Assembly (NCBI GenBank): GCA_016200145.1
Contig: JACQFH010000385.1
Coordinates: forward strand, 1 to 32,592
Length of the DNA: 32,592 bases
Source: Planctomycetia bacterium
Lineage (GTDB): Bacteria; Planctomycetota; Planctomycetia; Planctomycetales; Planctomycetaceae
Direction of reading: 5' to 3'
The position numbers and the translations under genes were made by a program. Shown here piece by piece: positions 3,201 through 22,759 of this stretch (its first letter is position 1; each line of letters begins with the position of its first letter). The notes beneath the pieces were generated by a model, which saw nothing but the letters and a program-made list of their open reading frames with translations, did not search any database and was not told the origin of the DNA.

Positions 3201-4859
3201 TCACGCGCTTGATTTCTTGGCCTTCTTACGAGACGCGAATTCATGACCGGACGAACTCGTGTGGTCATCCAGACCCGTGATGACCAGCGTGCGATTTCGC
3301 TCGGCAAACTCACGCTGCAGAATGTGCAGGCGTTCCATGACCGTGTGGTCAACGAGGCGGGTTTCGGACAAGTCGAGCTGAACCGTGGCCGTGTCGCTGG
3401 CATCTTCGATCTGCCGCCTCAGTCGAATCCAATTGCTGAACACGGCCGCGTCGTGGACCGACACGACAGTGTTGTCGCGGTCGTCGCGGTTGACCGTGAT
3501 CGGTGCCCGCAGCAGTGATCGCAGCGGCGCCCCGTTAAAGATATGCAGCAAGATCTTGACGGCGACCCCGATGGCAATCCCTTTCAGCAGGTCGGTCGCG
3601 AGAACTCCCAACAAAGTCACCAAAAAAATCGCCAATTGCTCTTTGCCGGTGTGATACACATGAATGAATTCTTGCGGAGACGCGAGGCGGAATCCGGTAT
3701 AGACCAGCATTGCGGCCAGGGCCGCCAGTGGAATCTCGTGAACCAGTCCAGGCACGAACGCCACAAACAGGAACAGAAACAGGCCGTGATACAAATTAGC
3801 GAGACGGGTTCGGGCGCCGTTGTCGATGTTGGCTTTGCTGCGCACGATCTCGGAGATCATCGGTAGCCCGCCGATCAGCGCGCTTCCCACGTTCGCCAAT
3901 CCCACGGCCAGAAGATCCCTGTCGAAGCTCGTCTTGCGTCGCCAGGGGTCGACCAGGTCGATGGCCTTGGCGCTCAGCAGCGATTCGAGGCTGCCAATCA
4001 GCGCAAACATCATCACCCATTTCCAGCCCGCTGCCGTTTGCAACCCGGAAAAGTCGGGAAGTGTGATTGCCGCGAAGATGTTCTTCGGCACGTCAACCAG
4101 GTAGTTGGGCCCCAACCCGAAGATATGCCCTCCGAACGAGTAGGTGTGCTCGTCCTCGAGATCGAACCACAACCCCAGCGGCACCGCAACCAGGATCACC
4201 CACATCGGAGCGGGAATGGCGCGGACCCAGCGTGACTTGAACATCGGCAGTCCGAACAGCAGCAACAGGCTCAACAGGCCAATCACGACGATTTCGGGGT
4301 TGCAGTTCATTATCGAATGGGGAATGTCGCGCAGCAGGAGCAGGGGTTCGCCGTGTTTCGACGGGGTGCCGACGACGGTATGAATCTGCTTGGAGATGAT
4401 GATGACGCCGATGGCGGCGAGCATTCCGTGCACGACCGACGTCGGGAAGAACTCGCTGAGCACGCCCGACCGCAACAGCGAAAAAACGATCTGCAGAACA
4501 CCGGCGGCGACTCCCACCCCCAGCGCCAGGCGATAAGCCTGGAAATCCGCGGCAGGATCCTCGCCCCCGGTAAAGCCGAATTCAGTGACGGCCCCCAGGG
4601 CGATGACGATCAGCCCCGCCGCCGGCCCCTTGATCGTCAGCTCCGAATTGCTGACCAGGCTGCAGACAACGCTCCCCACGATGGCCGTAAACACGCCGGC
4701 GATCGCCGGATATCCGCTCGCCAGAGAAATGCCCAGGCAGAGAGGCAGGGCGATCAGAAACACGAGAAAGCCGGAGTTCAGATCGGCCCGCCAGTTTTCC
4801 CGGAAACCGGCAATCCCAGTTTTGGGAACGTCAGCGCGGGTAGGCTTGTGATCGGTCAT
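3201..4859 (-). CDS. SulP-family anion (sulfate/bicarbonate) transporter with STAS domain
   Basis: A 552-residue inner-membrane transporter of the SulP/SLC26 family. Residues about 28-440 hold the membrane domain, with the first-half signature around residues 50-83 (SGYPAIAGVF, then NSELTIKGPAAGLIV). The conserved GSLESLLSAKAIDL is at 289-302 and GLPMISEIVRSKANIDNGAR at 331-350. A cytoplasmic STAS domain occupies about 455-532 (VQLDLSETRLVDHTVMERL), and the tail is Lys/Ser rich. Family members move sulfate, bicarbonate or other anions, often with Na+ or H+. Bicarbonate is inferred here only from the neighbouring dab genes. It lies on the same strand as the HyfB/HyfC-like genes 285 bp downstream. 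No good Shine-Dalgarno sequence precedes the ATG, which is common in planctomycetes. Confidence 0.9.
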   Translation of the reverse strand: MTDHKPTRADVPKTGIAGFRENWRADLNSGFLVFLIALPLCLGISLASGYPAIAGVFTAIVGSVVCSLVSNSELTIKGPAAGLIVIALGAVTEFGFTGGEDPAADFQAYRLALGVGVAAGVLQIVFSLLRSGVLSEFFPTSVVHGMLAAIGVIIISKQIHTVVGTPSKHGEPLLLLRDIPHSIMNCNPEIVVIGLLSLLLLFGLPMFKSRWVRAIPAPMWVILVAVPLGLWFDLEDEHTYSFGGHIFGLGPNYLVDVPKNIFAAITLPDFSGLQTAAGWKWVMMFALIGSLESLLSAKAIDLVDPWRRKTSFDRDLLAVGLANVGSALIGGLPMISEIVRSKANIDNGARTRLANLYHGLFLFLFVAFVPGLVHEIPLAALAAMLVYTGFRLASPQEFIHVYHTGKEQLAIFLVTLLGVLATDLLKGIAIGVAVKILLHIFNGAPLRSLLRAPITVNRDDRDNTVVSVHDAAVFSNWIRLRRQIEDASDTATVQLDLSETRLVDHTVMERLHILQREFAERNRTLVITGLDDHTSSSGHEFASRKKAKKSSA

Positions 4860-5475: not shown

Positions 5476-6160
5476 TTCGCCTTTCGAGAGAGTGAGAGAG
5501 ATAGAGAGGTTTGTCGAAATCCAACCGCAACACGGCGGGCCTTCGCGGCTTCACACGAGTTACAACTCCACTGATTGTCACAGCCGGAGTTTGTTGAACG
5601 ACCCGAAGAGAAAGCACGAACCGTGCCACTGGGACGATCCGTGCAACCGGCAGAACCAGCGCGGTCCGCGCCGTCGTTGGTACCCGACTCTAACGCATGG
5701 ACGTTACAGGCGTTGCGCGGGGATCGGTCGCGGCGACCGGCGTGCACGGAAAATTCGCGCAGGCCGTGCAGCTCGCGCCGTCCCGTTAATCCGGCGATAC
5801 GGCCTGAGTGAACGCGCGCAATGATTTCTGCGCAACGGCCTGGCGCGTGCCAGGTCGACTGTGTCGCGCTGCGGGCAGGCAGTCCCGCATATTCCGTACC
5901 GTTGGTACGGCCGCTATTCCCGATAGAATCGTCGCAGCCGTCCTATCCGGGCCGGCGAAGGGGAGTTGCACTGATTCTGCGCATCGTAGCGCATTTGCGG
6001 GAAGCGCCGATTGGGGCGGAAATCTCGACGATGACGTTCGTATCGATTGGCGCGGCTTGACACGCGACCTTCGGCAGTCTGGACAACGGCATATTACAAA
6101 AAAGTAAGGTTTGCCGATCTTCCTTTACGCAGGGGGCCGGTATCTCATATACGAATCGTG
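5476..6160. other. 685-bp divergent intergenic region before dabA
   Basis: No convincing gene is present; the open frames here lack family-like sequence. The region must hold the promoters of both the pilin-like gene and dabA. A perfect hairpin or dyad, CCGTACC-GTT-GGTACGG, is at 5894-5910. A TTGACA hexamer is at 6057-6062, but no -10 element lies at the right distance. A purine-rich GAGAGAGTGAGAGAGATAGA tract runs from about 5486 on the plus strand. An in-frame TTG at 6047 could extend DabA by 38 residues but the sequence gained does not look like the family. Confidence 0.4.
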
Positions 6161-9100
6161 ATGATCGAGTCATTTATGGTCGACGTCCGGCAGGAGGCGC
6201 AGCGACACGACGTCGATAAAGGCTGTCGCGACGCGCTGCACGACTTGGAAGAGGCAATCGAGCATGCCTCGCATCTGCTGCCGGCCCAGGGGCCGATTAC
6301 GGTCTTCATCCACCACAACACCCTGCACGCGTTCGAGCACCTGCCGTTCGAAGAGGCAGTCAAAGAAGCGGCGCATGTTTTTGGCTGTCACCCTTACCTG
6401 CAGGAAGACCAGTACCGCGACGCGCTCCGCCGCGGACGCATCCGGTTTTCGCACCTGAAGCAGGTCCTCGAGCGGGACCTGGCGGAACGCGCGGGCGAGC
6501 TGATTCCGTGTTTCGGTACGCGGCTCGATCTGCAACTGGCGATGCTGCACGACCCCGTACGGACCGGCCCGTCGGCTGAACTCGTGTGGCATGTCGCCGA
6601 GGCCGACGCCCTGCGCCGCGTCCGTCCGGAAGTCTCTGCCGCCGTACGCGCCGCGCTGATTTCCGAGACCCGCCGCTGGGTCATGCGCGACCTGCGGCGA
6701 GGAACCGAGCCAGAAAGCTCGAATTCGACTTTACACCGTTCCGCCGATGTGTCCCAGGGCCTCTCGGATCTGCTCGACCGGTTCGAATCGGCTATAGAAA
6801 ACTGGAGCGACGACGACTGGGAAGGTTTTACGCTCCAGGCGCTGTGGCGGGTTTGTTGCGATGGCGTTCGCAGCCTGCCGGCCTTTGGAAGCGGCCCGGC
6901 GCTTCCGGTCCGGCACCGCGACCTGTTGCTGGAGGCCACCGGCGCCGATCCGGATCTGCTCGTTAACGATCTTTTGATCCGTTTCGTAGGTGCATTTCTC
7001 GATCAGGGGCTGGCCTCCCGGGAAATGCCGCTTCATGACGAAGGATTTTTTCGCGCATTCTGCACGCTGTACAGCCAGCCGCTGGGACCTCCCGTCCGTT
7101 GGCTGCGCGGCCTGTCGCGCGAGCTCAGACGCCTGCTCGACCTTCAGCTTTCGCCGCTGGAATCGATCTATGAAAGCATTCAGGCCCTGGGCGTGCCCCG
7201 CGACGACTGGCAAAAGCTCGTTTCGTCCACGTTACTTTCGCTTCGCGGCTGGGGAGGCATGGTGCGCCAGATCGAGCTGCGCGGGGATCGGTCGGTGCGG
7301 CCGGTTCCTACAGGCAGCCTTGTCGAGTTCCTGGCGATTCGCCTGCTTCTCGACCGGTTCGCAGCAGAGCATATTGCCCGCTCGGAATTGGAATTCACCG
7401 AAACTCTCGCGGAATTGCGCGGACGGCTGCTCACGCAGCTCGCTCGACCATGGCAGCCGTCCGCCGAACAGCGGGCATTCCTCGTTTTCCAGCTGGCGCA
7501 GGTCGCCGGCCTGTCGCCCGACGTGCTGTACCGGCTGTCCGATCAGGAATGGGCGACGATCGTCCGCGAGATCGAGGCATTCACGGGCCTCGAGCGGCGG
7601 CGGATCTTTCATCTGGCATACGAGCGGCGGTTTACCGAACAGGCGCTCGATGCCATCGCGATCCATTCGCAGCAGCATTGGGGCCGGCCCGCCAACGCGG
7701 ACTTTCAGGTCTCGTGCTGCCTGGACGAACGCGAAGAATCGTTCCGGCGGCACCTGGAGGAGATCGCTCCGCGGGTTGAAACGTTTGGAGTTGCCGGGTT
7801 TTATAGCGTCGCGATCTATTATCGCGGAGCGGCAGACGCCCATTTCACGCCGCTTTGCCCCATTGTGCTGAAGCCCGGGCACTGGGTGACGGAGGAGGTC
7901 GGCGAAAGCCACGCCGAGGTGCACCACCGGCGCGCCAGAACACGCCGCGCGCTCGGCTCGGCTTCGCACGTGTTGCACCGCGGGAGCCGCACGATCGCTT
8001 CGGGAACGCTCCTGTCGGGGCTCGTCGGCGTGCTGGCCACGTTTCCGCTGGTCGCGCGAATTCTGTTTCCGCGCGTCGCCGCGCGAATTCGCCGGCGCCT
8101 GGCTCACATTGTGCAACCACCCTCCAACACGCGGCTGCAGATCGAACGGCGGGAAGCGAGCTGCGGCCCGGAGAACGGCCATGTCGGATATTCCGTCGAC
8201 GAAATGACGGGCGCGGCCGAGCGCCTGCTGCGTGACATGGGTTTCACGTCGGGCTTTTCGCGCCTGGTCGTTCTGCTGGGGCACGGTTCCGAGAGCCTCA
8301 ATAATCCGTACAACTCGGCGTACAACTGCGGCGCGTGCGGGGGCTCGGCCGGAGGGCCCAACGCGCGGGCCATGGCGCAGATCCTGAACGATCCGCGCGT
8401 CCGCGACTTGCTGGCGCAGCGCGGAATTGTGCTGTCCTCGGACACCGTGTTTGTCGGAGGGCTGCACAATACCTGCAATGATTCCGTCGTCTACTTCGAC
8501 CGCGGTCAGATTCCGCAGACGCATCAGCAGGAATTTCACGACGCCCGCCAGGCGATCGAGGCCGCCTGCGAACGAAATGCGCACGAGCGCTGCCGGCGGT
8601 TCATGTCGGCGCCGCTGACTCTGTCATTCGGTGAGGCGCGGCGGCATGTCGAAGAACGCGCAGAGGACCTGGCCCAGACCCGCCCCGAATTGGGCCATGC
8701 GACGAACGCCATCACGATCGTCGGCCGGCGTGAATGGACGCGGGGGCTGTTCCTCGACCGCAGGGCCTTTCTGACCTCTTACGATCCCACTCAGGACGAC
8801 GCCGAGAGCTCGATCCTGACCCGGATTCTGCAAGCCGTGTTTCCCGTGTGTGCCGGCATCAACCTGGAGTATTATTTTTCGCGCGTGGACAATTACGGCT
8901 ATGGATCGGGAACAAAGCTGCCGCACAACCTCGCGTCGCTGCTGGGCGTCATGGACGGCGCAGCCAGCGATCTGCGAACGGGGCTGCCGTGGCAGATGGT
9001 GGAGATTCACGAGCCGGTTCGCGCTGTGTTCGTCATCGAGACGACCTCCGCCGCCATGAACGGCATCATGGATCGCAACGAGGGCATCGCCCGGCTGTGC

Positions 9101-9313
9101 CGCAACGGCTGGGTTCAGCTTGCGTTGCTGCACCCCCAGACGCGACAAGTGAGCGTGTTTCACGACGGCGCGTTCGAACCCTATGAGCCGCAGGCGGCGA
9201 CGCTACCCGGGGCCAAGTCGTCGGTCGACTGGTATCGCGGGTGGCGGGACCACCTGGAATTCTGCGAGATCACGGGCGATTCGGAGGCGGCGCGACCACA
9301 CGACAGAACGTGA
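6161..9313 (+). CDS. dabA: DabA, zinc-dependent inorganic-carbon pump subunit (DUF2309)
   Basis: This 1050-residue protein is the soluble, carbonic-anhydrase-like subunit of the DAB (DABs accumulate bicarbonate) complex, which is thought to hydrate CO2 vectorially at the cytoplasmic membrane, driven by the cation gradient through DabB. The family zinc ligands are visible: Cys520 and Asp522 in VSCCLDERE, and His708 and Cys723 in LLGHGSESLNNPYNSAYNCG. The 15-residue His-Cys spacing and the two-residue Cys-Asp spacing match my recollection of the characterised DabA. The N-terminal HHNTLHAFEHLPFEEAV and late NCGACGGSAGGPNARA blocks are typical. I chose ATG 6161 (or 6176) because the 38 residues gained from TTG 6047 are unlike the family; no Shine-Dalgarno sequence decides it. 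The antiporter gene follows after 30 bp. The length is at the long end for DabA, which usually has about 800-1000 residues. Confidence 0.92.
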   Translation: MIESFMVDVRQEAQRHDVDKGCRDALHDLEEAIEHASHLLPAQGPITVFIHHNTLHAFEHLPFEEAVKEAAHVFGCHPYLQEDQYRDALRRGRIRFSHLKQVLERDLAERAGELIPCFGTRLDLQLAMLHDPVRTGPSAELVWHVAEADALRRVRPEVSAAVRAALISETRRWVMRDLRRGTEPESSNSTLHRSADVSQGLSDLLDRFESAIENWSDDDWEGFTLQALWRVCCDGVRSLPAFGSGPALPVRHRDLLLEATGADPDLLVNDLLIRFVGAFLDQGLASREMPLHDEGFFRAFCTLYSQPLGPPVRWLRGLSRELRRLLDLQLSPLESIYESIQALGVPRDDWQKLVSSTLLSLRGWGGMVRQIELRGDRSVRPVPTGSLVEFLAIRLLLDRFAAEHIARSELEFTETLAELRGRLLTQLARPWQPSAEQRAFLVFQLAQVAGLSPDVLYRLSDQEWATIVREIEAFTGLERRRIFHLAYERRFTEQALDAIAIHSQQHWGRPANADFQVSCCLDEREESFRRHLEEIAPRVETFGVAGFYSVAIYYRGAADAHFTPLCPIVLKPGHWVTEEVGESHAEVHHRRARTRRALGSASHVLHRGSRTIASGTLLSGLVGVLATFPLVARILFPRVAARIRRRLAHIVQPPSNTRLQIERREASCGPENGHVGYSVDEMTGAAERLLRDMGFTSGFSRLVVLLGHGSESLNNPYNSAYNCGACGGSAGGPNARAMAQILNDPRVRDLLAQRGIVLSSDTVFVGGLHNTCNDSVVYFDRGQIPQTHQQEFHDARQAIEAACERNAHERCRRFMSAPLTLSFGEARRHVEERAEDLAQTRPELGHATNAITIVGRREWTRGLFLDRRAFLTSYDPTQDDAESSILTRILQAVFPVCAGINLEYYFSRVDNYGYGSGTKLPHNLASLLGVMDGAASDLRTGLPWQMVEIHEPVRAVFVIETTSAAMNGIMDRNEGIARLCRNGWVQLALLHPQTRQVSVFHDGAFEPYEPQAATLPGAKSSVDWYRGWRDHLEFCEITGDSEAARPHDRT

Positions 9314-9343: not shown

Positions 9344-10720
9344 ATGCCGAACGTCGAACAGATTGTGCAGTCGCTGGGGCTGGTCGTGGTGGCCGCGCCG
9401 CTCCTGCTGACGGTCATCCTGGGAATCTCGTCGCTGGTCGGTCGCCCCCTGTCGGAAGAAAAGACGACTCTGCTGGGACATGGCACGATCGTCTGCGGGC
9501 TGCTGGCTTCAATCGCCATCCTGGGGATCATGTTGGTCGTCGGCAAACGTCACATCCCCATCCCCCTGGGGGACTGGGTGGTGATTCCGCACCATTACCA
9601 TTTCTCAATCAAGATCGTCTTCGATCGGCTCTCGGTTCCGTTTGTCATTCTGTCGTATGTGCTGTCGGGAACGATCGGCGCATTCGCCAGCCAGTACGTG
9701 CATCGTGAGCCGGGATTCAACCGGTTCTTCTCGCTGTACTCGATCTTCGTGCTGGGGATGGTCGTGACGGCGCTGGCCGGAACGATCGAAACGCTGTTCA
9801 CCGGCTGGGAGCTCGTGGGCCTGTCTTCGACGCTGCTCGTGGCGTTTTACCAGGAGCGGCCGGCGCCGCCGCGCAACGCGCTCTGGATCTGGGCCGTGTA
9901 CCGGGTCTCGGACGCGGCATTGCTGCTGGCGGCCGTCGTCATGCACCACATGCGCGGCGAAGGGGACTTCGACCGGCTCCTGGGGAGCGGCATCTGGCCC
10001 GATGAAGTCTCGAAACTCGAGCCGCGACAGGCCATGTTCGTGGGAGCGCTGCTGCTCATCGCGGTTGCGGGCAAATCGGCCCTGGTGCCGTTCTCGGGCT
10101 GGCTGCCGCGCGCCATGGAAGGGCCGACTCCCTCGAGCGCCGTGTTCTACGGGGCGCTCTCGGTCCACCTCGGAGCATTTCTGCTGTTGAGAATCAGTCC
10201 CCTGCTGGCTCTTTCGCCCGGAATTTCGACGGCCGTGATTGTGATCGGGTTGCTCACGGCCGTCGTCGCGCACCTGGCGGGCAGCGTGCAGACCGACATC
10301 AAAACGGCGCTTTCATTCGCGTCGCTGGTGCAGGTCGGCATTATCGTGACCGAGATCGGCCTGGGCTGGCACTACATCGCACTGATTCATCTGCTCGGCC
10401 ATGCCTGTCTGCGCACGCTGCAATTCGTCAGGGCGCCGACTTTGCTGCAAGACTATCGGCGGCTGGAAGACGCTCTTGGCGAGCGACTGCCGCGCGGGCG
10501 CGCCGGGATCGAACAGTATCGCACCTGGCTCTATCGCTGGTCGCTGGAGCGCGGCTACCTGGACGCGTTTTTGAGCGAGTACTTCGTGGCTCCCTTCGTA
10601 CGCGTCTTCCGCTGGTGCGATCGGATGGAGCGGCGCTGGACCGACTTCTTGTCTCGCGGGCCATCTCGCGACTCCGACCGGCCCGCGGGGCAGAGCGGAG
10701 GCATCGACGACCTGACATGA
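9344..10720 (+). CDS. dabB: DabB-like antiporter subunit (NuoL family)
   Basis: A 458-residue polytopic membrane protein of the Proton_antipo_M family, the membrane partner expected for DabA. With the start at 9344, Glu156 in [17 protein letters not shown] and Lys244 in [20 protein letters not shown] correspond to the conserved charged pair of NuoL-type channels. The [11 protein letters not shown] motif is the NuoL/DabB form. [20 protein letters not shown] lies in the C-terminal third, followed by a soluble tail that is rich in charged residues. ATG 9344 has GGA six bases upstream; ATG 9323 would add seven residues but its AGG lies only three bases away. The gene starts 30 bp after dabA and overlaps the next gene by four bases (ATGA). 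It is shorter than NuoL, which is normal for DabB. Confidence 0.88.
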
Positions 10721-12159
10721 ATCTGTTGCAACTCCCCTGGATCGAGCTGGCGATCTTGTTTGCGATGGTCGGATCGGCGATCGTCGCCCGCCTGCGCGAC
10801 CCAAATCACGCCTATCAGTGGGGCCTGGCCTTCATGGGCGCGTCGTTCATCTCCACGCTGTGGGCGTGGCAGGCGTACTATCTGGGAATTCCTGCGGAAG
10901 ACCTGGCCCGCTTCAGTCTTCAGCCCGGGCTGTTCGGCCGGCGACTCTTTGCGCTCGACGAGCTCAGTGCGCCTCTTGTGCCGAGCGTCGCGCTGCTGCA
11001 CTTTCTGACGGCCCTGGCGACTGCACGGACGAAAATGCGGCGTTACTCATTTTCGTGGTCGCTGGCGGCCGAGGCCATCCGCCTGGCGACCTTCAGTTGC
11101 GAGGAACCGTGGGTGCTCGTGGGCCTGCTCGCGAGCTTGACCGTCCCCCCGTACGTCGAGCTGGTTAATCGCGGTTGCCCGACTCGCGTCTACACGCTGC
11201 ACATGGCGCTGTTTGTCGCCCTGCTGGTCGCCGGGTGGGCGATCGTCGACACGGCTCCGGGCGTCTCTTCGGTTCGCGCCCAGGTGGGAGTCATTCTGCT
11301 GATGGCCGCGATTCTCGTCCGTTGTGGAACGATTCCCGTCCACTGCTGGATAACCGACTGGTTTGAACACGCCTCGTTTGGAATTGCCATTCTGTATGTC
11401 GTTCCGTTGAGCGGCGTATATGCCGCAGTGCGGCTAGTCCTGCCGATCGCCCCCGATTGGGTTCTGCGCACCATCGCGCTGATCTCATTGGCCACGGCCG
11501 TGTATGCAGCCGGCATGGCCACGGTGCAGCGCGACGCGCGGCGATTTTATGCCTATCTGTTTCTCAGCCACGCGTCGCTCGTGCTCGTCGGGCTCGAAAT
11601 GCGGACGGCCCTGTCGCTGACGGCTTCGCTGTGCCTGTGGTTTTCGGTGATTCTCTCGCTGGGTGGCTTCGGGCTGGCGCTGCGCGCGCTGGAATCGCGA
11701 TTCGGGCGGATGTCGCTTGTCAAATATCAGGGACTCTATGGTCATTCGCCGACGCTGGCGGTGTGCTTCATGCTTACGGGCCTGGCCTCGGTCGGGTTTC
11801 CGGCAACCGTCGGATTCATTTCGACTGAGCTCCTGGTCGACAGCGCGGCTGAAGTCAGCGCGCTGGTCTGCGTGGCGGTGGTGGCGGCGGCCGCCATCAA
11901 CGGGATTGCCGTCGTGCGTGCCTACCTGTTGCTGTTCACGGGCGCCAAGCACGTCTCCTCCGTCTCCCTGGAAATCAGTCCGCGAGAGAGATTTGCCGTG
12001 CTGACTCTGGCCGCGCTGATTCTGGGTGGAGGCATTTTCCCGCAGCCCGGCGTGACTTCACGATACCTGGCGGCTGAACAGGCCCTCAGCCGCCGCGAGT
12101 CGTCGCGTGACGTGCGTGCCGGCGATCCGCAAACAGACGAGGTCGAGCACAAGCAATAG
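10717..12159 (+). CDS. Second antiporter subunit of the dab operon (NuoM-like)
   Basis: A 480-residue membrane protein with many hydrophobic helices, more NuoM- than NuoL-like. [19 protein letters not shown] is the counterpart of a conserved NuoM segment, and Glu129/Glu130 lie at the position of the conserved helix glutamate. The broken-helix segment reads [20 protein letters not shown], with Arg202 where NuoL/M proteins normally have lysine. The start ATG overlaps the stop of dabB as ATGA (10717-10720), so translation is coupled and the two products are probably made in similar amounts. A longer frame begins at 10615 but lies inside dabB. Well-studied DAB systems have a single DabB, so this may be a third subunit of the complex; that is inference from operon structure. 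The tail after residue 450 is hydrophilic. Confidence 0.82.
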
Positions 12160-19655: not shown

Positions 19656-21323
19656 ATGCCGGTTCTCAAGCATCTGACGAAGCTGCTGCCGCTGGTGGTG
19701 GTTCTGGCTGTGGCGTCGCTCGTGGCGCGGGCGGCGCGCAGTCCGCTGCCGCCGGCCGAAAAGCTACCCGAGGTGGGGATCGAAATCGACGACCTGAAGG
19801 CCGCCGTCGCGCGCGTCAACGCATCGTTTACCGATCGCTGGAAAGAATCCGGGATCCGGCCGGCCGGCCCGGCCGACGATTTGCAGGTTTTGCGCCGGCT
19901 GTCGCTGGCGTTGCACGGGACAATTCCGTCGCTCCAGGAAATCCGGCAGTTTCAGGGTGATTCGCGTGCCGATCGGCTCGAGCACTGGACGCGACGCCTG
20001 CTGGCCGACAGGCGTTTCGCCGATTATTTTGCCGAGCGGCTGGCGCGCGGCATGGTGGGAAAAGAAGGCGGCCAGTTCATCATTTCGCGCCGCGACCGCT
20101 TCGTCGACTGGCTCAGCGAACAGTTGCAGAAAAACACCCCTTACGACGCGCTGGTGCGCAAAGTCATTTCGGAAACCGGCCTGTGGACGGGGAACCCGGC
20201 GACCAATTTTGTGACGGCTGCCGTCAACGAAGCGGATGTCGACGAGAACAAGCTGGCCGGCAAGACCGTGCGCGTCTTTCTGGGTCAGCGAATCGACTGC
20301 GCCCAGTGCCACGACCACCCCTTCGACCACTGGAAACAAAGCGAGTTCGAGGGGCTCGCGTCATTTTATGGTCAGGTGCGGACGTCCGGGCTGGTCGGCA
20401 TTGAAGATCTTGAATCGAAAGACGGCAAGCCGATCGAGTACGAGGTCGAAGACCGCAAGACCCTCAAGACAAGAGTCGTGCCCGTGAAGGTTCCGTTTCA
20501 TTCCGAATGGCTGCCGGAACAGGGCACACGCCGCGCGCGGCTGGCCGCGTGGATCACGCATCCCTCAAATCGCCGTTTCGAGCGGGCGATCGCCAACCGT
20601 GTGTGGGCGCTCTTGTTCGGACGGGCCTATCATGAGCCGGTCGACGATCTGGCCGATCCGCCTGAATCGACCCGCGATGTGCTCGACCTGCTGGGGGATG
20701 ATTTCCGAAGTCACAACTGCGACCTGCGACGGCTGATCCAGGTTGTGGCGGCCTCCGAGCCGTTCCGCCTCAGCTCCGAATACGAATTGCCTTCGGCCGC
20801 CGATCGCACGCCGGCTGAACAACTGGCAGCAATCAACGCGGCGCACGGCGCCTGGGCCGTATTTCCGCTCATTCGCCTGCGCCCCGAGCAGGTGATCGGT
20901 TCGCTGTTTCAAAGTTCTTCGATTCAGACGATCGATCAGAATTCGCACCTGCTCTTCCGTACGCTGCGGCTGATTCAGGGGGGGCAGTTCGTCAACGAGT
21001 ACGGCGATCTCGGCGAGAACGAACTGCTCGATCGCGGCGGCACGATTCCACAGCGGCTGCTGATGTTGAACGGCGAGCTTGCGGCAGGGCCGACGCGCGG
21101 CAATCCCGTTAACGCGGTGAGTCGAATCTCCGCTTTTGCGTCAACGGACGAAAAATGCGTTGAGACCGCCTACCTGTGCTGCCTGTCGCGCTTCCCCGAC
21201 GCCGAAGAGCAGGCATGCTTCGTCGGCCGCCTGCGCGACACGCACGGCGGCGATCGCCGCCAGATTGTCGAAGACCTGATCTGGGCGCTCTTCAATTCGA
21301 CCGAATACTCGTGGAACCACTGA
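19656..21323 (+). CDS. DUF1549/DUF1553 secreted protein
   Basis: A 555-residue planctomycete-type protein with an N-terminal signal segment (LLPLVVVLAVASLVARAARS). The DUF1549 part (about 45-270) contains VLRRLSLALHGTIPSLQEI and CAQCHDHPFDHWKQSEF, with Cys215, Cys218, His219 and His221 forming a CxxCHxH motif that could bind haem or metal. The DUF1553 part (about 285-550) contains LAAWITHPSNRRFERAIANR and ends LIWALFNSTEYSWNH, the usual family end. There is no N-terminal planctomycete cytochrome C domain, which many relatives have. These proteins usually come with a DUF1501 protein, as here 150 bp downstream. The biochemical role is not established; a link to polysaccharide or sulfated-glycan use has been suggested for the families. 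Confidence 0.9.
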   Translation: MPVLKHLTKLLPLVVVLAVASLVARAARSPLPPAEKLPEVGIEIDDLKAAVARVNASFTDRWKESGIRPAGPADDLQVLRRLSLALHGTIPSLQEIRQFQGDSRADRLEHWTRRLLADRRFADYFAERLARGMVGKEGGQFIISRRDRFVDWLSEQLQKNTPYDALVRKVISETGLWTGNPATNFVTAAVNEADVDENKLAGKTVRVFLGQRIDCAQCHDHPFDHWKQSEFEGLASFYGQVRTSGLVGIEDLESKDGKPIEYEVEDRKTLKTRVVPVKVPFHSEWLPEQGTRRARLAAWITHPSNRRFERAIANRVWALLFGRAYHEPVDDLADPPESTRDVLDLLGDDFRSHNCDLRRLIQVVAASEPFRLSSEYELPSAADRTPAEQLAAINAAHGAWAVFPLIRLRPEQVIGSLFQSSSIQTIDQNSHLLFRTLRLIQGGQFVNEYGDLGENELLDRGGTIPQRLLMLNGELAAGPTRGNPVNAVSRISAFASTDEKCVETAYLCCLSRFPDAEEQACFVGRLRDTHGGDRRQIVEDLIWALFNSTEYSWNH

Positions 21324-21475
21324 AAAAAAATGCGGAATTCGGAATGCGGAATTGTTGGTGAGCCGGGGGAACGGGCACCGATTCGAATAGAATTGGTCGC
21401 CCCCGGGTACATGCGTCGGTACTTGACGACATGACGCGCGGAAAGATCTGTTCCTTTAACGATCGATTCAATTCC
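21324..21475. repeat. Short direct repeat in the DUF1549-DUF1501 spacer
   Basis: Two copies of ATGCGGAATT (21330-21339 and 21344-21353) are spaced by CGGA, directly after the stop codon and an A8 run. CCGGGGG (21363-21369) can pair with CCCCCGG (21400-21406). Related GAATGCGGA text occurs after glyS near 25048. No gene is seen in this spacer. Confidence 0.45.
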
Positions 21476-22759
21476 ATGATTGATTTCACAATCGGACAGC
21501 AATTTGGCGGCGGAATTTCGCGGCGGGACGTGTTGCAGTTGGCGGCGGCCACGGGGTTGTCATTCCTGTTGCCCGGCTTGCAGGGCCGCGCGGCCGATAC
21601 ACGCGGCAACGAGCGGCCGAAATCGCTGATCACGCTTTGGATGGGGGGCGGCCCCAGCCAGTTGGAAACGTTCGACCCGCATCCCGGTACGGAGATTGGG
21701 GGCAAGACGAAAGCGATCAATACGAAGCTGCCTGGAGTTCAGGTCAGCGACTTTCTTCCCAACATGGCTGAACAGATTCACCAGATGTGCGTGATCCGTT
21801 CGATGGTGTCACAGGAGGGGGACCACGAACGGGGAGCATACCTGATCAAAACAGGTTATCGTCCCGAGACAACGCTCATTCATCCGTCGATCGGGGCCAT
21901 CGTCGCGCACGAGCTGCCTGCCCCGGGCGTCGAAATCCCTCATCACATTTCCATCCTGAACAGCCAATGGCCCGGACGAGGCGGGTATCTGGGGGACGAT
22001 TACGATCCGTTCAAAGTGCTCGATCCGAAACAGAACCTGCAGAATATGAAGGCCACGGTCCAGGACGAAAAACGTCAAGGTCAGCGGCTGAGAGACCTGG
22101 CCGTCGTCGAGAAATCATTCCGCAATCGCCGGCGGATTCAGGCAGATGCCACGCTGCACCAGGATACGGTCCAGCGAGCGCTCACGATGATGAGTTCGCA
22201 GCAGCTCAAGGCATTTCAAGTCGAACTCGAGCCGGCGGCCGCTCGCGCCGCGTATGGCGACACGCCGTTCGGAACCGGTTGCCTCATCGCGCGGCGGCTG
22301 GTCGAAACGGGGGTGCGCTCGATCGAGGTGAACCTCGACGGCTTCGACACGCATGCCAACAATCATGACGGGCAGAAAACGCAGGCCGATATCTTCGATC
22401 CGGCGTTTGCCGCGCTGATCCGCGATTTGATCGACAGAGATTTGTTCGACAGCACCGTCGTGCTCTGGATCGGTGAATTCGGCCGCAAACCGTTCATCAA
22501 CAATCTGAGCGGCCGCGACCACTGGCCCAGCGGATTTTCGTGTGTGGTCGGAGGCGGTGGAATCCGCCGCGGCCTGGTTGTCGGCGAGACCGATCCCACA
22601 GGACAGAAAACGAATCCGACTGACCCGATCGAAGTCCACGACCTGTTCGCGACCATCATGAAGACTCTCGGCGTCGACTACCGCAAAGAGGTCACGACGC
22701 CGATCGGCCGGCCGATGGCTTTGTGCAAGGGCCGGCCGATCGACCGGCTGCTGGCGTAG
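21476..22759 (+). CDS. DUF1501 secreted protein (sulfatase-like fold), Tat-type signal
   Basis: A 427-residue protein of the DUF1501 family, related to the alkaline phosphatase/sulfatase superfamily. Arg16-Arg17 in ISRRDVLQLAAATGLSFLLPG form a twin-arginine-type signal. Family blocks include ITLWMGGGPSQLETFDPHPG, IGEFGRKPFINNLSGRDHWP and VHDLFATIMKTLGVDYRKEV; the conserved Asp/His residues in the first two are plausible metal ligands. ATG 21476 is preferred because it places the signal near the N-terminus; ATG 21431 would add 15 residues. The gene lies 152 bp after the DUF1549/DUF1553 gene, the standard pair in planctomycetes. Substrate unknown. Confidence 0.88.
   Translation: MIDFTIGQQFGGGISRRDVLQLAAATGLSFLLPGLQGRAADTRGNERPKSLITLWMGGGPSQLETFDPHPGTEIGGKTKAINTKLPGVQVSDFLPNMAEQIHQMCVIRSMVSQEGDHERGAYLIKTGYRPETTLIHPSIGAIVAHELPAPGVEIPHHISILNSQWPGRGGYLGDDYDPFKVLDPKQNLQNMKATVQDEKRQGQRLRDLAVVEKSFRNRRRIQADATLHQDTVQRALTMMSSQQLKAFQVELEPAAARAAYGDTPFGTGCLIARRLVETGVRSIEVNLDGFDTHANNHDGQKTQADIFDPAFAALIRDLIDRDLFDSTVVLWIGEFGRKPFINNLSGRDHWPSGFSCVVGGGGIRRGLVVGETDPTGQKTNPTDPIEVHDLFATIMKTLGVDYRKEVTTPIGRPMALCKGRPIDRLLA

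Follow-up and report, generated by a model that had tools for sequence, protein, structure and literature searches.

In Halothiobacillus neapolitanus DAB2 (DabA2–DabB2; PDB 9rd0, 9rd8 and 9rd9), a PF10070 protein with a Cys2His zinc site and an Asp–Arg dyad, DabA, is paired with a NuoL-derived membrane protein, DabB, that carries the lysine of transmembrane helix (TM) 7 and the Lys/His residues of TM10–11 (PMC13144422). DAB2 has two subunits and the gene order dabB–dabA, and its DabB of 551 amino acids (aa) has 15 TM helices and no TM5 glutamate, Ile151 standing at that position (PMC13144422). For the question of how CO2 hydration in DAB systems is powered by the protonmotive force, this structure points to DabB TM12–13 and residue Glu444 on the membrane finger of DabA, which together make the periplasmic half-channel, and Glu444 is essential and substitutes for Lys399 in TM12 of NuoL (PMC13144422). 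Here we describe a 32,592-nucleotide stretch from a Planctomycetia bacterium (the window; contig JACQFH010000385.1, assembly GCA_016200145.1), in which dabA is followed by a shortened dabB, dabB1 (protein B1), and by the gene of a second antiporter-like protein, B2. It is proposed, with moderate confidence, that these genes specify a three-subunit DAB whose B1 and B2 have a single proton path in common.

The gene dabA (6158–9313, + strand; PF10070, E=1.3e-241) encodes a long DabA of ~1051 aa, dabB1 (9344–10720, +) a 458-aa NuoL-like protein with PF00361 and PF00662 domains, and the third gene (10717–12159, +) the 480-aa, NuoM-like B2 with PF00361. The B1 stop and B2 start overlap in the tetranucleotide ATGA (10717–10720, +), read from the sequence. 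Coordinates and domain matches thereby bear out an earlier sequence-only reading of this DNA, which had NuoL-like and NuoM-like genes, joined by ATGA, following dabA. In NCBIfam, B1 matches NuoL best and B2 matches NuoM best, each scoring far under the equivalog cut-offs. The arrangement dabA–B1–B2, with or without a SulP gene, is termed A-first, and the conventional dabB–dabA arrangement B-first. The window has a PF10070 gene in linkage with one for a PF00361 membrane protein, and its B1 falls in the DabB clade, as expected of the DAB/DAC superfamily; jointly with the shared path, it is reasonably probable that the window encodes a dissolved inorganic carbon-accumulating complex of the A-first type in this superfamily.

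The gene order itself has been known since 2017, when clade C YbcC/COG3002 operons were reported in the COGNAT study to have ybcC (dabA) upstream of a nuoL homologue, COG1008 (NuoM) and COG0659 (SulP); in its available portion this account deals with gene content, and truncation, residue changes, fusions and a CO2-pump function do not appear there (PMC5700660). Neither a truncated DabB, nor loss of the finger Glu, nor B1 fusions were found described in the accessible literature, which does not cover key subscription papers, and the split architecture set out below is new here in that sense. Schmid (2021) reportedly distinguished one-, two- and three-subunit complexes.

B1 is markedly shorter than a conventional DabB. 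Nearly all of 40 B1 orthologues are ~462 aa long, versus ~530 aa for conventional DabB in the same order, and in alignments the NuoL-like TM1–11 lead directly into the C-terminal tail, the TM12–15 region of conventional DabB being absent. Correspondingly, a single-chain AlphaFold2 model of B1 (pLDDT 87.9; TMq 0.71 against NuoL) contains TM1–11 and ends in a long helix (residues 390–437), the second part of which is strongly amphipathic. Residues Glu156 (9809–9811, +; the position of TM5 Glu144 in NuoL), Arg187, Asp190, Lys244 (10073–10075, +; the broken-helix lysine of TM7), Lys320 and His349 are kept in 68/68 B1 sequences, whereas the TM5 Glu occurs in 0/15 conventional DabB proteins. In phylogenetic trees, B1 and its fused forms make up one clade (100/100) that is sister to conventional DabB (97/95), itself a clade at 100/97. 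By alignment and phylogeny, B1 is a true DabB, cut down.

That B1 and B2 both belong to the PF00361 superfamily would also suit a cation/proton antiporter of Mrp-like or complex-I-like type, separate from DabA and merely co-transcribed with its gene. However, NuoL and MrpA fall outside the grouping of B1 with DabB (97/95 and 99/97), B1 and DabA share the same deep split, and fusions of B1 with the C-terminal half of an antiporter subunit also adjoin dabA; a separate antiporter is accordingly rated as very improbable.

DabA has changed as well. Its zinc-site residues (C521, D523, R525, H709 and C724, within dabA at 6158–9313, +), assigned by alignment to Halothiobacillus DabA2 (9rd0_A), are invariant in all A-first DabA sequences, every one of which has the equivalents of DAB2 Cys351, His524 and Cys539 and of the Asp353–Arg355 dyad. 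By alignment, the membrane finger (~residues 602–644; 7961–8089, +) lacks an equivalent of Glu444, as it does throughout the A-first sequences (Glu in 0/134), versus Glu in 30/32 and Gly in the other two of the B-first sequences with a residue at this position. Leu658 of DabA2 was termed strictly conserved, canonical β-carbonic anhydrases (β-CAs) having Gln or His there (PMC13144422). The corresponding residue is His847 in the window (8696–8698, +); all 134 A-first sequences have His or Asn at this position, versus Leu in 32/32 B-first ones, counted likewise over those with a residue there. The A-first and B-first DabA proteins separate at 100/100, the same split as for DabB. The shortened B1, the lost finger Glu and the replacement of Leu658 by His or Asn are linked features that the sequence-only reading had not noted. 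Unlike DAB2, the window thus has the order A–B1–B2, a TM5 Glu in a DabB of 11 rather than 15 TM helices, a finger devoid of Glu, a His at position 658 and an extra NuoM-like subunit. A-first DabA is also ~180 aa longer than the conventional form, and its N-terminal region contains additional segments at ~residues 100–240 and 415–465.

These substitutions could instead signal a shift of function, in which A-first DabA no longer performs CO2 hydration driven by the protonmotive force and acts, for example, as a reversible carbonic anhydrase feeding the adjacent SulP. His or Asn at position 658, as in canonical β-CAs, a finger without Glu and the lack of any RuBisCO match in the host genome all agree with such a shift. 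Anammox bacteria are autotrophs, however, and anammox-type genomes also carry A-first DABs; moreover, DAB2 with the mutation Leu658Gln still supported growth (PMC13144422). A change of function of this kind is considered highly unlikely. The host genome, an 8.28-Mb draft in 742 contigs with a single DabA, encodes one β-CA and gave no RuBisCO match, and the likeliest use of its A-first DAB would therefore be to supply ordinary carboxylations with bicarbonate. For the same lack of a RuBisCO match, involvement in carboxysomal CO2 fixation was rejected for this host.

In its single-chain AlphaFold2 model (pLDDT 94), B2 has a NuoM-like fold of 14 TM helices (Foldseek TMq ~0.83 to NuoM). Residue 202 aligns with the TM7 lysine of both NuoM and NuoN, which confirms the earlier observation that Arg202 (codon cgt; 11320–11322, +) occupies the place of the broken-helix lysine. 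Arg202 is present in 42/42 B2 orthologues from the host taxon and in 69/70 proteins of a second, partly overlapping set, so that it is a family trait rather than chance. The N-terminal half of B2 has also lost the TM8 Lys, and a TM5 Glu was seen at its position in none of the B2 sequences compared. These losses are confined to the N-terminal half: the TM12 acid, Glu371 (11827–11829, +), is Glu in 42/42 orthologues and acidic in 70/70 of the second set (67 Glu and 3 Asp). B2 forms its own clade (100/99) beside NuoM (99/96), within which B2_L117 is a long branch of unsure placement. Lying outside NuoM and having lost the TM5 Glu and TM7 Lys, B2 is not a complex I NuoM, and it does not group with MrpA or MrpD in a tree that holds few Mrp references, the MrpD-like ones being long branches. 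A placement of B2 with the antiporters of an unrelated complex, which the sequence-only reading had named as a check, was not what the tree gave.

It had been suggested that the ion path of B2 was either altered or structural only. Alteration is upheld by the lost N-terminal charges, but a purely structural part is not, and B2 is probably half-functional because the TM12 acid is invariant despite these losses. If B2 served structure or assembly alone, it would fill the place of TM12–15 while DabA and B1 conducted protons by another route; that B2 has lost three charged residues of NuoM (the TM5 Glu and the lysines of TM7 and TM8) agrees with such a role. However, an acid in TM12 of 70/70 proteins, kept also in fusions that lack the B2 N-terminal half, suggests selection on charge rather than on bulk, and neither DabA nor B1 has the parts from which DAB2 makes its periplasmic half-channel. 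We regard a structural B2 as unlikely.

Natural fusions connect the two membrane subunits. In other planctomycete lineages, a single open reading frame beside an A-first dabA encodes a B1-type N-terminal part and a shorter C-terminal part, which matches only the C-terminal half of the B2 profile. The match is strong in L127 (E=1.4e-26), L124 (6e-16), L104 (1e-13) and L125, and the matching fused forms, all without the B2 N-terminal half, retain an acidic residue where B2 has Glu371. Three of the four fused-type genomes tested (G376, G286 and G471) contain hydrazine synthase and therefore look anammox; G216 gave no match. The fusions are the best evidence that B1 and the C-terminal half of B2 may act as one unit, and would provide a case of complex I antiporter modules reduced to half-units, which in related lineages, these anammox-type genomes among them, are joined in one protein. 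Together with conserved linkage and the 100/100 splits of DabA and B1, they support the three-subunit DAB variant that had been suggested at the outset.

The fusions also bear on a proposal of the COGNAT authors, who linked a greater number of membrane subunits in an operon with a greater number of ions, as stated in the available portion of their paper (PMC5700660). Applied to the window, whose single operon holds two antiporter-like subunits, each subunit would move its own ion, with two ions used or pumped per CO2. Neither path is complete, B1 lacking TM12–15 and B2 its N-terminal residues, and the fused relatives keep one B1 part with only the C-terminal half of the second subunit; such gearing is judged quite improbable.

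Two further arrangements were observed. L124 and L125, from the same anammox-type family, are two divergent operons of A-first dabA and fused DabB that lie back to back. Separately, B-first DabB proteins of 850–890 aa (L083:3352–5949, L105:5882–8434 and L107:4909–7569) consist of a full conventional DabB and an extra NuoM/N-like C-terminal half; by sequence, this joins DabB to half an antiporter on a second, separate occasion. Hydrazine synthase is present in the genomes of L105 and L107.

In complex I, NuoM and NuoL face each other through the C-terminal half of NuoM, which holds a TM12 acid, and the N-terminal half of NuoL, which holds a TM5 Glu and a TM7 Lys. The models of B1 and B2 match NuoL and NuoM respectively, and the charges kept in B1 and B2 are those at this contact, although, unlike complex I, the window operon has no electron-transfer subunits and its two antiporter-like proteins have undergone the losses described above. 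Since the kept charges sit on both sides of the NuoM–NuoL contact while the N-terminal half of B2 and the C-terminal half of B1 are lost, we infer one shared proton path.

In the predicted DabA–B1–B2 complex, DabA would be a zinc β-CA-like subunit using the protonmotive force to hydrate CO2. B1, retaining TM1–11 and the lateral amphipathic helix, would meet its NuoM-derived partner B2 in the geometry of the NuoM-to-NuoL contact of complex I. Through Glu371, the C-terminal half of B2 would supply a periplasmic half-channel, replacing the one that DAB2 makes from DabB TM12–13 and finger Glu444, and the intact N-terminal half of B1 (Glu156, Lys244, Lys320 and His349/353) would pass protons on towards the cytoplasmic face beneath DabA. 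From the periplasm, the route would therefore run through B2 Glu371 and B1 Glu156/Lys244 into the cytoplasm beneath DabA, with CO2 hydration at the zinc of DabA coupled to it. The N-terminal half of B2, with Arg202 as a fixed charge, may be a non-pumping remnant or a docking surface. More tentatively, the path may be split such that B1 provides only the cytoplasmic half and B2 only the periplasmic half, while the coupling Glu is lost from the DabA finger and a β-CA-like His/Asn returns to the active site. If this is true, proton flow and CO2 hydration would be coupled via a complex-I-type subunit interface and not via the DabA finger. With both DAB2 coupling elements gone from A-first DABs, and a separate subunit offering a candidate replacement in hundreds of genomes (at least 587 relatives), the coupling question becomes testable with one operon and point mutants.

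Several observations weigh against the shared path. The loss of TM12–15, the loss of the finger Glu, the gain of B2 and the change at Leu658 all fall on one branch, so that their correlation represents a single evolutionary event and not many. The C-terminal match to B2 is weak in the fused proteins of L129 and L130 (E ~1e-6), and L131 is below every B2-profile threshold. At L043, dabA and B2 occur without an adjacent B1, and L096 and L097 hold orphan dabA genes. Covariation between B1 and B2 (normalised mutual information with average product correction; 115 pairs, Neff ~93) gave no usable signal, and its few recurrent columns, which resembled a clade split, were rejected as uninformative. 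Furthermore, no demonstration of CO2 hydration by any A-first DAB was found in the accessible literature.

A scan for the B1 family, with one genome per species, yielded those 587 or more relatives, of which the best 80 loci were examined for gene order. These are mostly from Planctomycetota, with a few metagenome-assembled genomes labelled Verrucomicrobia, Opitutae or Akkermansia, and the closest named B1 relatives among the matches listed are the Planctomycetota Singulisphaera (70%) and Aquisphaera (67%). B2 lies directly after B1 in 79/80 loci, often with SulP adjoining, and was not seen within a complex I operon in the loci examined; the notion that B2 is part of a neighbouring complex was rejected on this linkage. 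The two genes overlap or are ≤10 bp apart in 54 of 69 measured pairs, 37 of which have the same 4-bp ATGA overlap as the window. In nearly all loci whose contig extends far enough, dabA is upstream of B1. An exception, L140, has no dabA within 6 kb of its B1–B2 pair, which indicates that the pair can stay together apart from dabA. L095 has two dabA genes and one B1.

Both DAB types are present side by side in the host's order, the A-first type with DabA of ~1040 aa, B1 of ~462 aa and B2 of ~490 aa, and the conventional type with DabB of ~530 aa and DabA of ~865 aa. DabA is found in 128 of the 170 genomes of this order and B2 relatives in 133, the weakest of which (E ~1e-10 to 1e-15) are probably NuoM paralogues. 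The putative three-subunit DAB variant is widespread in planctomycete bacteria, not a local oddity. A plasmid collection contained no B2 orthologue, the best matches being NuoM genes at ~30% identity, and the plasmid DabA proteins among those examined, used as references, are all B-first.

The premise that characterised DAB systems have one DabB holds, with the qualification that Halothiobacillus DAB1 has a third, small membrane subunit (PMC13144422). H. neapolitanus DAB1 and a three-gene operon of Nitrobacter hamburgensis resemble the window in having a third subunit besides DabA and DabB. The Nitrobacter operon differs in its order, DabB–hypothetical protein–DabA, and lacks a NuoM-like subunit; its DabA, in which the finger Glu is retained, falls among the B-first DabA proteins in the tree. 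In place of a small hypothetical membrane protein of the DAB1 type, the third gene of the window encodes the 480-aa NuoM-like B2. On the Nitrobacter hamburgensis plasmid (L214:526–6412), genes for DabB, the hypothetical protein, DabA and PII lie in a DAB1-like order beside RuBisCO and carboxysome genes.

Elsewhere in the window, a SulP transporter gene (3201–4859, − strand), BicA-like but below the BicA cut-off, is a homologue of the SulP gene that flanks the operon in many relatives. It adjoins a gene for a HyfB-like antiporter of 662 aa (927–2915, −), near the contig edge. At L047, HyfB-, HyfC-, HyfE- and HyfF-like genes directly follow B2, and a hydrogenase-4-like membrane module thus recurs beside A-first DABs. 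Further along, positions 19656–22759 hold a PSCyt2/PSD1 (DUF1549/DUF1553) gene and then a DUF1501 gene, a pair that we take to be typical of planctomycetes.
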